Shown here in pieces: positions 3,553 to 5,929 of a stretch of DNA of 64,000 bases. The stretch lies in assembly GCA_016195815.1 (NCBI GenBank), contig JACPYX010000001.1, positions 1-64,000 on the forward strand, given 5' to 3'. How positions within the stretch are numbered: the first letter of the stretch is position 1; each line of letters begins with the position of its first letter. Under the pieces are notes generated by a model that had not been told where the DNA came from, made no database searches, and worked only from the letters and a program-made list of their open reading frames with translations. This stretch comes from Chloroflexota bacterium (GTDB lineage Bacteria; Chloroflexota; Anaerolineae; Anaerolineales; Villigracilaceae). Position numbers and translations under genes: made by a program.

Positions 3553-3581
3553 TTGCCAAATCCACAGCCCCTAGTTATAAT
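3553..3581 (+). promoter_or_regulatory. Promoter of tRNA-Val
   Basis: TTGCCA (3553-3558), a 17-nt spacer, and a perfect TATAAT (3576-3581). The -10 box ends 10 nt before the mature tRNA 5' end. Confidence 0.8.
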
Positions 3582-3591
3582 GTGGTTTCTC

Positions 3592-3665
3592 GGGCGGATA
3601 GCTCAGTTGGTTAGAGCACTGCTTTGACATAGCAGAGGTCGTAGGTTCGAGCCCTATTCCGCCCA
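3592..3665 (+). tRNA. tRNA-Val (anticodon GAC)
   Basis: The cloverleaf is complete. Acceptor GGGCGGA pairs with TCCGCCC, D stem GCTC/GAGC, anticodon stem CTGCT/AGCAG with loop TTGACAT (anticodon GAC), and T arm GTAGG-TTCGAGC-CCTAT. The discriminator base is A3665 and CCA is not encoded. No terminator is visible between it and the T-box leader about 45 nt downstream, so the two may share a transcript. Confidence 0.95.
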
Positions 3666-3670
3666 CTTTT

Positions 3671-3705
3671 CAGTGACCGATAAGCAGTGGTCAGTAATTA
3701 GTTAA
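3671..3705. repeat. Degenerate heptamer array, five units
   Basis: Five 7-nt units of the type cagtgac/cagtggt/cagtaat/tagttaa lie between tRNA-Val and the T-box leader. They belong to the same family as the other heptamer arrays in this window. Confidence 0.7.
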
Positions 3706-3710
3706 AACGC

Positions 3711-3984
3711 AATGACCGGGACGAGTAGGTGAAACTTTTTTCTGACAGAGAAAAGAGACAAATGTTGAGAGTCTCTTTCAGGAACAATCACCGAAAACCA
3801 CCCGCGAGCGTGAAGCAGAAAAATGATCAGTGATCAGTTAGTATGCAGAACGGAAGACTCCGTTATCAGTCCAAGAGATACCTTGATGGTTGAGTAGTGC
3901 AAAGCACATATCGAAACGACAAGGTAAATCGGGTGGAACCGCGTGAGCAAAACTCTCGCCCCGTCTTGGGCGAGAGTTTTTTAT
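3711..3984 (+). promoter_or_regulatory. T-box leader (tRNA-Thr sensing) of thrS with terminator
   Basis: The T-box core aatcgggtggaaccgcg is at 3927-3943 and contains TGGA, where the A would pair with a U discriminator of uncharged tRNA-Thr. Stem I starts near 3717: CGGG (3717-3720) pairs with CCCG (3801-3804), and the AGTA loop-E motif is at 3724-3727. The likely specifier is ACC (Thr) at 3797-3799, preceded by GAA and followed by A. The competing terminator is the stem aaactctcgccc (3949-3960 region) paired with gggcgagagttt (3968-3979) plus T's. A heptamer repeat (3825-3845) occupies a variable part of the leader. The specifier assignment is my folding by eye. Confidence 0.9.
3825..3845. 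repeat. Heptamer array inside the T-box leader
   Basis: Two perfect gatcagt units followed by tagtatg lie downstream of stem I of the T-box leader. Confidence 0.55.
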
Positions 3985-4000
3985 TTCTACGGAGGCCGCC

Positions 4001-4051
4001 ATGACCGAAGACAGCACCACCTTCACTACACGGCGACTCGGAGGTTGGTAA
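4001..4051 (+). CDS. Threonine-rich 16-codon short ORF between T-box terminator and thrS
   Basis: ATG 4001 sits 5 nt after a strong GGAGG (3991-3995) and reads 16 codons to TAA. Five of the 16 residues are Thr, four of them in the run TTFTT. The stop codon overlaps the start of a 9-bp inverted repeat (4050-4058 with 4080-4088, 21-nt loop), which ends 16 nt before the thrS Shine-Dalgarno (about 4105-4110). Composition and position resemble a leader peptide that could sense charged tRNA-Thr during translation. No such peptide is known to me downstream of a T-box, so translation and function are inferred. It is in the same phase as thrS but separated by the stop. Confidence 0.45.
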   Translation: MTEDSTTFTTRRLGGW

Positions 4052-4117
4052 CCGCCTCTCCGGGTTGCGGAAATCCATCGAGGCGGTTGCAATTCAAAGT
4101 TCAGAAAGGAAGCGAAA

Positions 4118-5929
4118 ATGTCGCAACAAGTTCAGGAAAAATACGAAGAGTCACAACTTTATAAGATCCGTCACTCGGCCGCGCATATCATGGCGCAGGC
4201 CGTGTTGGAGATATTCCCGGATGGCAAAGTCACAATCGGCCCGCCCGTCGAAAACGGTTTCTATTATGATTTCGATCTGCCGCGCAATCTCACACCCGAA
4301 GACCTAGAAACCATCGAAAAACGGATGCGGCAGATCGTGCAGGGCAAGCACGAGTTCAAGAAAACGGTCATCTCGGCGGATGAGGCGAAGAAGGTTTTTG
4401 CGAACCAGCCCTACAAGTTGGAGTTGATCGAAGGACTTGAAAAAGGCGGATTCGACGAGTACGGGAATCCACTCAAGGAAAAGCCTGAGATCTCGATCTA
4501 TCAGCACGATACGTTCGTGGATTTGTGCCGCGGTCCGCACGTGGCGAACACAAAAGAGATCAAGCAGGATGCGTTCAAGTTAATGTCTATTGCGGGCGCG
4601 TATTGGCGCGGCGACGAACATAACAAAATGCTCCAGCGCATTTACGGCACGGCCTGGGAAAACGCGCAACAACTCAAAGATTATCTTTTGCAATTGGAAG
4701 AAGCCAAGAAGCGCGATCATCGCAAATTGGGCAGGGAACTTGAAATTTTTATCTTCGATGATGAAGTCGGGCCCGGCCTCCCGCTCTGGCTCCCGAATGG
4801 CGGCGTGATGATCGAAGAGTTAGAGAAACTCGCCAAAGAAATGGAAGAAAAGGCCGGCTATCTGCGCGTCCGCACGCCTAACCTGACGAAGGAAGATTTG
4901 TTCATTCGTTCAGGCCATCTGCCGTATTACGCCGAGAGCATGTACCCGCCGATGGAACTCGAAGGCGTGAAGTATTACGTCAAGCCGATGAACTGTCCGA
5001 TGCACCACAAAATTTTTGCATCGAAGGGCCGTTCCTATCGCGACCTGCCGATTCGTCTCGCGGAATATGGGACCTGCTACCGTTATGAAAAATCGGGCGA
5101 ACTCTTCGGCTTGATGCGCGTCCGCTCGATGCAGATGAACGATGCTCACATCTATTGTGGTGAAGATCAATTCGAACAGGAATTCATGGGCGTGATTGCC
5201 CTGTATCACAAATATTTCGAGTTGTTTGGAATTGATAAATATGTGATGCGTTTGTCGTTGCACGCCAAATCAGGTCTCGGCAAAAAGTATGTGGATAATC
5301 AGCGCCTGTGGCTCAAGACGGAAGACATGGTCCGCCGCGCCATGGACAACGGCGGCGTTCCATATATGGAGGTCGCGGATGAAGCTGCCTTCTATGGTCC
5401 CAAGATCGATGTGCAGATCTGGTCCGCAATCGGACGTGAGTTCTCGCTTGCCACGAATCAAGTGGACTTTGCCGTGCCTGAACGCTTTGACTTGAAGTTC
5501 ACGAACAAGGAAGGCGCGGATGAAATTCCGCTGTGCATTCACCGTGCACCGCTCTCGACGCACGAGCGCATGGTAGGTTTCCTGCTTGAACACTACGCAG
5601 GCAACTTCCCGGTCTGGCTTTCGCCTGAACAGGTGCGCGTCATCCCCATCACGGACGGGCAGAACGAATACGCTCAGGGCATTGTCCGGCAGTTGCGCGA
5701 GCAGGGTATCCGCGCCAGCGCGGACATCAGCGCCCAGCGCATGAACGCCAAAATCCGCTCGGCACAGTTGATGAAAGTGCCGTATATGCTCGTGGTCGGT
5801 GAGAACGAGATGAACGCGGGACAGGTCTCGCTGCGCGTGCGCGACGGCAGCCAGCAGAATAATATTTCGCTAGCCGAGTTTATTGCACGGATGAAGGATC
5901 GAATTGAGAGAAGGGCGAAAGAGTTGTGA
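4118..5929 (+). CDS. thrS: Threonyl-tRNA synthetase lacking the N-terminal TGS domain
   Basis: The 603-aa class II synthetase charges tRNA-Thr. ATG 4118 follows AAAGGA. The protein begins almost directly with the N2 editing domain (RHSAAHIMAQAVLEIFP; HxxxH type), so the TGS domain of the 642-aa E. coli enzyme is missing. Such short forms are known in other phyla. The catalytic domain carries MNCPMHH, motif 2 around TCYRYEKSGELFGLMRVR, the Zn-binding Cys (about residue 293) and His residues, and IHRAPLSTHERMVGFLLEHY. A C-terminal anticodon-binding domain runs from about 500 to 603. Expression is predicted to be controlled by the upstream T-box. Confidence 0.97.
   Translation: MSQQVQEKYEESQLYKIRHSAAHIMAQAVLEIFPDGKVTIGPPVENGFYYDFDLPRNLTPEDLETIEKRMRQIVQGKHEFKKTVISADEAKKVFANQPYKLELIEGLEKGGFDEYGNPLKEKPEISIYQHDTFVDLCRGPHVANTKEIKQDAFKLMSIAGAYWRGDEHNKMLQRIYGTAWENAQQLKDYLLQLEEAKKRDHRKLGRELEIFIFDDEVGPGLPLWLPNGGVMIEELEKLAKEMEEKAGYLRVRTPNLTKEDLFIRSGHLPYYAESMYPPMELEGVKYYVKPMNCPMHHKIFASKGRSYRDLPIRLAEYGTCYRYEKSGELFGLMRVRSMQMNDAHIYCGEDQFEQEFMGVIALYHKYFELFGIDKYVMRLSLHAKSGLGKKYVDNQRLWLKTEDMVRRAMDNGGVPYMEVADEAAFYGPKIDVQIWSAIGREFSLATNQVDFAVPERFDLKFTNKEGADEIPLCIHRAPLSTHERMVGFLLEHYAGNFPVWLSPEQVRVIPITDGQNEYAQGIVRQLREQGIRASADISAQRMNAKIRSAQLMKVPYMLVVGENEMNAGQVSLRVRDGSQQNNISLAEFIARMKDRIERRAKEL

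Follow-up and report, generated by a model that had tools for sequence, protein, structure and literature searches.

The messenger for threonyl-tRNA synthetase (thrS) in a bacterium of the phylum Chloroflexota appears to carry, behind a T-box that already senses tRNA-Thr, a cis-regulatory element that is probably a second, ribosome-based sensor of threonine charging, one that would read tRNA-Thr(GGU). The element is a short open reading frame, rich in threonine codons, whose end runs into a predicted RNA pseudoknot. As judged from the thrS leaders of relatives, its Shine-Dalgarno sequence, its reading frame, its threonine codons, and the predicted pseudoknot are all conserved, and the element is restricted to thrS. 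From this pattern we infer the rest: the translation of the frame, the stalling of ribosomes upon it, the switch and its direction, and the output on thrS. Here, "the window" means the entire stretch of 64,000 nucleotides that was analyzed.

The leader of thrS in the window

Read along the + strand, the region presents a tRNA-Val gene, the T-box, its terminator, a reading frame led by a Shine-Dalgarno sequence, a 9-bp inverted repeat, and finally thrS (Table 1). The T-box scores 105 bits against a gathering score of 93 for its Rfam family, and both the antiterminator GGGTGGNACCGCG and the terminator are present. Its specifier is presumably the ACC in GAAA-ACC-A, read by eye.

Table 1. Features of the thrS leader region, in positions of the window.
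Feature	Position	Strand	Evidence or remark
tRNA-Val(GAC) gene	3592-3666	+	directly 5' of the thrS T-box
T-box leader (Thr; first tRNA-Thr sensor)	3703-3966	+	Rfam RF00230, 105 bits, E 4e-22
Intrinsic terminator hairpin of the T-box, with T run	3949-3980	+	terminator scan
Shine-Dalgarno sequence of the leader ORF, CGGAGG	3990-3995	+	sequence; GGAG invariant in alignment A1 (31 sequences)
Leader ORF, MTEDSTTFTTRRLGGW and stop	4001-4051	+	sequence; ATG 4001, TAA 4049-4051
Predicted pseudoknot stem 1, 5' strand, within the ORF	4033-4042	+	pairs with 4059-4068
Predicted pseudoknot stem 2, 5' strand, AACCGCCTC, left repeat arm, overlaps the stop codon	4050-4058	+	pairs with 4080-4088
Predicted pseudoknot stem 1, 3' strand	4059-4068	+	pairs with 4033-4042
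Predicted pseudoknot stem 2, 3' strand, GAGGCGGTT, right repeat arm	4080-4088	+	pairs with 4050-4058
Shine-Dalgarno sequence of thrS, AAAGGAAG, outside the pseudoknot	4105-4112	+	by eye
Gene for threonyl-tRNA synthetase (thrS), following the element	4118-5929	+	ORF and homology; matches in 136 of 152 family genomes

The initial annotation had placed a strong Shine-Dalgarno sequence and a 16-codon frame with five threonine codons behind the T-box terminator, and had put the stop codon of that frame at the base of the inverted repeat. The sequence confirms both points. The frame, MTEDSTTFTTRRLGGW, lies between the terminator of the threonine T-box and thrS; threonine occupies codons 2, 6, 7, 9, and 10, four of these in the run TTFTT, and the TAA overlaps the left arm of the repeat. 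From this stop to thrS is a distance of 66 nt.

A terminator scan of positions 3560-4200 returns a single terminator-like site, that of the T-box (0.7 are expected in shuffled sequence). After position 3980, and up to 4200, the scan gives none, and the window thus offers no alternative of terminator and antiterminator 3' of the leader frame within that reach. A promoter 3' of the T-box, considered for the sigma-70 type only, was ruled out by the occurrence of zero such sites in 3560-4200. Identity with a known RNA family was likewise rejected; for 3960-4140 the best E-value in Rfam 15 is 0.42, far under the gathering scores.

Homologs of the element in relatives

The source genome (3.16 Mb, 98% complete) was compared as one of a set of 152, the others being five genomes of the same genus and 146 further genomes of the same family. 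The named records of these relatives, for the best 80 loci, are Chloroflexota MAGs labelled Anaerolineales, Anaerolineae, Anaerolineaceae, or Candidatus Villigracilaceae. A thrS match was obtained in 136 of the 152 genomes, and 132 thrS upstream regions were read. Homologs were called with a strict profile of the Shine-Dalgarno sequence, the frame, and the downstream structure, at E <= 1e-6. A first profile that included flanks was discarded in its favor, the search having drifted into the terminator and thrS.

With the strict profile, 43 of the 132 upstream regions, window included, carry a homolog of the element, all within one Chloroflexota family. A strict T-box motif is found in 122 of the 132, and it accompanies the element in every case, both in the 43 members and in the 30 of the tree set described below. 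T-box and element presumably share one transcript.

A covariance model built from 31 members was then used under strict filters, at which weak matches are lost; at that setting it matches 50 of the 152 genomes, one match in each. Forty-four of these matches lie at thrS (one, in G120, judged from a partial thrS match). The six others all have E above 1e-4: five are ordinary gene starts with SD-ATGAC, and one is an unrelated stretch. In the source genome itself, the match at thrS alone falls below 0.01, and the next best, with E 0.019, is a gene start. Under the same strict filters, 10 of 396 genomes drawn from the class match at 1e-4, all of them from the same family.

Reading frame and threonine codons

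All 43 members have a start codon (42 ATG, one GTG) in frame with a conserved core, CGNCYCGGAGG, even as the distance from start to core takes five values: 18, 21, 27, 30, and 33 nt. The core was located by best match, with frame ignored. The spacing from core to the 3' arm of stem 2, in the 34 of 43 members where it is measurable, is mixed by frame (15/13/6). The comparison with relatives that the initial annotation had proposed finds the frame maintained and threonine codons abundant within it.

Between start and core, threonine accounts for 134 of 349 codons (38%) when the frame of the start codon is read; the two alternative frames give 33 of 306 and 3 of 306. The codons used are ACT (80), ACC (43), ACA (6), and ACG (5), so that ACT and ACC make up 123 of the 134, and every member has a threonine codon three codons before the core. 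Here, then, are two marks expected of an attenuator leader, a conserved Shine-Dalgarno sequence, start, and frame, and an enrichment in cognate codons; translation of the leader is predicted. Exceptions are L068, with an in-frame stop just before the core, and L018, with a single threonine codon in its leader. In L136 (genome G018) no stop closes the leader, which continues in frame into thrS, possibly as a fusion or an extended start.

Purifying selection on the peptide itself is weak, with a pS/pN of 1.8 for the leader frame and of 1.66 and 1.24 for the two others. A weak signal is to be expected of a leader in which it is the codons and their frame that matter, and not the peptide.

The gene behind the leader shows the opposite choice of codons. 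Among 40 non-overlapping ORFs of the window with 250 codons or more, thrS has the lowest threonine content (15 threonine codons in 603 residues) and the lowest share of ACT and ACC (0.13). In the thrS genes of the 80 named relatives, 1326 of 47224 codons encode threonine, as ACG (846), ACC (235), ACA (214), and ACT (31). The codon choice of the leader is the reverse of that of thrS: the leader is rich in ACT and ACC, and thrS is poor in both. Fisher tests on these choices are only descriptive, since sequences that share descent enter them as if they were independent.

The tRNA-Thr that decodes ACT and ACC has the anticodon GGU. It would also be the tRNA that pairs with the ACC specifier in the T-box, if that specifier, read by eye, is correct. 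The codon pattern predicts which tRNA is being watched.

These codons also bear on another view of the frame, that it is a plain upstream ORF that couples to thrS initiation, or lowers it, with no sensing of threonine. In favor of this view are the GGAG-type Shine-Dalgarno sequence, invariant in 31 aligned sequences, and the weak selection noted above. It gives no account, however, of the threonine content and the codon choice, of a pseudoknot that overlaps the end of the frame, or of a leader with leucine codons that occurs at leuS as well. A plain upstream ORF is thus a very improbable reading.

A pseudoknot that starts inside the frame

The initial annotation had seen a hairpin in the inverted repeat. 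The 9-bp repeat is real, but the hairpin alone is incomplete: it appears to be stem 2 of an H-type pseudoknot, with a stem 1 interleaved. Alignment A1, which holds 31 of the 43 members (six with large insertions and six divergent ones were left out), displays two interleaved helices with compensatory changes, and stem 1 starts inside the ORF.

The share of paired cells in A1 is 85.1%, whereas column shuffles give 81.6% and versions slid along the alignment 36-45%; these scores cover the given structure plus a weaker third helix, and the structure was derived from the same sequences, which favors it over the slid versions. Cells changed on both sides number 37, against 17.1 in shuffles, and the covariation score is 0.249, against 0.178. 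On each of the three measures, none of 500 shuffles is as high. Pairs with a double change (8) and further pair types (26) do not go beyond the shuffles. The third helix, GGTTTG with CAAACC, is 65-77% paired in A1.

Single members were examined as well, with the 5' strand of stem 1 fixed. Of the 43, 37 score better than every one of 40 shuffles of the stretch that follows, and for 39 no more than two of the 40 reach the same score. The result is poor in L022, L027, L108, and L134, and in the last three another helix is chosen. By eye, the large insertions of L017, L032, L055, L108, and L136 sit in loops and seem to spare the stems.

Computed singly, the stems of the window come to -18.0 and -15.4 kcal/mol (base 4058 being counted in both). 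The fold of 3985-4140 by itself is not exceptional (z -1.15), and for this reason the case rests on comparison. By that comparison the element is more than chance: homologs in a third of the leaders read, all with the frame kept, and a predicted pseudoknot that outdoes every shuffle in 37 of 43.

In the window the thrS ATG is predicted to be unpaired, and its Shine-Dalgarno region is 0.34-1.0 unpaired. Pairing of the 5' strand of stem 2 with the thrS Shine-Dalgarno sequence comes to -10.9 kcal/mol in L061 and -6.7 kcal/mol in the window, these being the two sequences compared. Sequestration of that site as a conserved feature was rejected on this comparison, the pairing being good in L061 and poor in the window. 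At the other end of the element, pairing between the spacer of the leader Shine-Dalgarno sequence and the core involves 4 pairs and 90.3% of cells, with 9 of 31 sequences failing at the most variable pair.

A conserved pseudoknot invites a different reading, in which it is the operator for a protein, ThrRS or another RNA-binding protein, and the ORF is only a passenger whose translation keeps remodelling that operator. The thrS gene of E. coli is, after all, autoregulated by ThrRS binding to its leader, and an operator of this kind would suit a pseudoknot that is kept with compensatory changes and has no terminator found with it. Yet conservation to 90% is reached at few loop positions of A1 (a GG opening loop 1, one A in loop 3), and the operator leaves unexplained a threonine codon content of 38%, the bias of these codons to ACT and ACC, and a strict frame. 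It is on balance unlikely.

Distribution and evolution

The element is scattered among its relatives. On a thrS tree of 81 loci (the 80 named ones plus the window), all 81 have the T-box motif and 30 have the element. At least 21 changes are needed to place the element on this tree; labels shuffled at random need 24.6 on average, and 35 of 500 shuffles are as low. A pattern this patchy and so barely clustered implies that the element is readily lost. Distances between elements nevertheless track those between the thrS genes (Spearman 0.41, 4 of 2000 permutations as high, for 27 of the 30 elements). Vertical inheritance followed by many losses accounts for this most simply, as no second genomic copy that could act as donor was found.

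The element is absent from 89 of the 132 upstream regions, and from three of the six genomes of the same genus, while the T-box stays. It is therefore dispensable. This qualifies the initial annotation in two ways. Its second, translation-based sensor retains its basis, an in-frame ORF rich in threonine behind a threonine T-box and only at thrS, but for an element that most relatives do without. It had also named loss of the ATG, the frame, or the threonine codons in relatives as evidence to the contrary; start, frame, and the threonine before the core are kept in every member, while in those 89 regions the element is lost as a whole.

Patchiness would also suit a chance ORF beside a hairpin, or a mobile intergenic repeat, as would the further repeats and palindromes that inspection by eye shows in this gap in many relatives. 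This reading is barely credible. Each genome has one match, which lies at thrS apart from the six weak and unrelated ones, and on these grounds a mobile repeat was rejected; moreover, the element changes in step with thrS, and its frame and covariation are left unaccounted for by chance.

Among the relatives, palindromes and repeats of other kinds are frequent in the gap between terminator and thrS, for example of the GGACGATAGACCG, CCCCTCCGCC, and GAGCGAAGTCGAAG types, and they are frequently found where the leader element is absent.

A proposed mechanism

The mechanism proposed for a sensor of threonine charging begins when RNA polymerase runs on beyond the T-box, a sign that tRNA-Thr is uncharged. 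The polymerase would go on to transcribe a short frame equipped with its own Shine-Dalgarno sequence. A ribosome entering here would read several threonine codons, mostly ACT and ACC, with the same tRNA-Thr(GGU) that the T-box would sense. Were that tRNA still uncharged, the ribosome would stall with the last conserved threonine codon in its A site, and its front edge, by standard footprint geometry, would lie over roughly half of the stem-1 5' strand. This partial cover would block the pseudoknot and leave the stem-2 hairpin alone.

Conversely, once charging has recovered, ribosomes would reach the stop codon and leave, stems 1 and 2 would refold as the pseudoknot, and thrS expression would drop. 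The pseudoknot would be allowed when the flow of ribosomes is free, and also when there are no ribosomes. Candidate outputs are translation of thrS, stability of the mRNA, or Rho termination.

No output step is visible: 45-174 nt separate the leader stop and thrS in the 42 members that have a stop before the gene, and no second terminator was found in 3560-4200 of the window. A simple output is known from rtpA of B. subtilis, where the stop of the leader adjoins the rtpA start site, no pseudoknot is known, and the terminating ribosome blocks the next Shine-Dalgarno sequence. At thrS the stop is too far away for this, in the window as in the rest of those 42 members. The absence of a second terminator from the scan, the unsequestered thrS start in the window, and the varying distance make the simple rtpA mode unlikely as the rule for all members, and point to control of thrS translation, stability, or Rho termination by way of structure.

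One of these outputs can be taken as an explanation in itself. A stalled or initiating ribosome, together with the pseudoknot, might shield the 5' end of the read-through mRNA or block a nuclease, an effect on stability that would work at any distance from thrS. It would need no contact with the thrS start site, which suits both the varying distance and a thrS Shine-Dalgarno sequence that the pseudoknot in the window does not capture. If the threonine codons set the stall, this becomes a sub-case of the ribosome-based sensor. Taken separately, it is quite unlikely.

A parallel at leuS

The source genome offers a second case. Between a T-box terminator and leuS lies the ORF MKMNFRFEVVPCLLAQDGLQPSLRMLAIRIANAARLLLVLNIES (locus L016, 1884-2018, contig C17), with counterparts in the related genomes G003, G004, and G005 and none in G001. 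From the 131 genomes with a leuS match, 30 were examined. In 18 loci, an ORF led by a Shine-Dalgarno sequence stands behind the T-box, 11 of the type FW(K/N)xG(P/S)LL and 7 of the type CLLA, all picked by eye; nine have no such ORF, and three have no T-box motif in the stretch fetched, one of which (G003) has the leader. Leaders of the FWKQGPLL or CLLA type are thus present, with counterparts in part of the family.

Leucine makes up 88 of 540 codons when these leaders are read in their own frame; the alternative frames give 43 of 522 and 48 of 522. Of the 88, 64 are CTT or CTC. The region of the leucine codons can pair with the leader's own Shine-Dalgarno stretch over 5-10 bp, a figure without a shuffle control. 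In the same genome, T-box leaders before pheS, serS, ileS, valS, and trpE (genes named by eye) have in their gaps no ORF led by a Shine-Dalgarno sequence and rich in cognate codons. As a separate observation, leuS (L016 from 2068) and many of its relatives begin with a long lysine-rich N-terminal extension (MIKTKKKTTTKKKS...).

The arrangement at thrS suggests that these Chloroflexota bacteria gauge the charging of one tRNA two times on a single mRNA. A broader proposal, to which we would give an even chance as a whole, is that this lineage has evolved, with at least two origins, a two-step tRNA gauge on synthetase mRNAs. In it, a ribosome-free T-box would decide transcription, and a leader of cognate codons would then re-read the same isoacceptor by way of the ribosome, to fine-tune or shut off the message that had got past the T-box. 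At thrS, the leader ORF fused to a pseudoknot without a terminator would represent a new class of ribosome-responsive RNA switch.

To our knowledge, a single B. subtilis operon is the precedent for double sensing of one tRNA on one mRNA. If the proposal is true, such sensing would be a design that evolution has used more than once, in a phylum whose members are for the most part uncultured. The contrast between the thrS leaders read that keep the second sensor, about a third, and those that lack it would then offer a natural experiment on why a T-box by itself does not suffice, and the pseudoknot would be a compact, ribosome-dependent switch that works without a terminator.

Comparison with known systems

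The joint action of T-box and stalling at rtpA was reportedly worked out by Chen and Yanofsky in 2003 and 2004. The thrS leader has the same tandem of a T-box and a cognate leader ORF for one tRNA, here on what is presumably one transcript. It differs from rtpA, which responds to tRNA-Trp and is not a synthetase gene, in that it involves tRNA-Thr and a synthetase, with 66 nt from stop to gene and a predicted pseudoknot overlapping the ORF. According to PMC11255114, at B. subtilis rtpA/yczA (anti-TRAP) the T-box governs read-through, and ribosomes that stall in dependence on the tRNA set the translation of the gene as well. The initial annotation had called a double control of this kind unusual; rtpA is a precedent.

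Classical attenuators, such as the thr, leu, his, and trp leaders, place a short ORF rich in cognate codons 5' of alternative RNA structures. The thrS leader is like them in having such an ORF with RNA structure behind it. It is unlike them in that no intrinsic terminator was found after the leader ORF; the terminator lies upstream and belongs to the T-box.

T-boxes were reported from Chloroflexi in 2008, PMC2494555 naming ileS, trpE, and a trpB-like gene of Dehalococcoides. A search of the literature, largely without subscription journals, found no publication on a thrS T-box with a threonine leader, or on T-boxes in this group.

Another related system is the LEU element of actinobacterial leuA. 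As described in PMC1262725, it combines a leader ORF that has a run of cognate codons with a conserved pseudoknot in the same region; the leucine codons pair with the leuA Shine-Dalgarno sequence, and no T-box is described at leuA. The thrS leader resembles it in that its codons overlap or adjoin the predicted pseudoknot, stem 1 starting in the ORF. It differs in having threonine and thrS in place of leucine and leuA, a T-box in front, and a thrS Shine-Dalgarno sequence outside the pseudoknot. The base stem of the LEU element, between the codon run and the Shine-Dalgarno sequence of the gene, is absent from the predicted fold of the window, and pairing of the stem-2 5' strand with the thrS Shine-Dalgarno sequence comes to only -6.7 kcal/mol there. 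Experiments cited in the same source spoke against codon sensing at leuA, a fair warning for what is proposed here.

With the T-box riboswitch (RF00230), finally, the thrS leader shares its upstream part, which scores above the gathering threshold. Unlike the riboswitch, the element described here comes after the T-box terminator, and it would need a ribosome to act.
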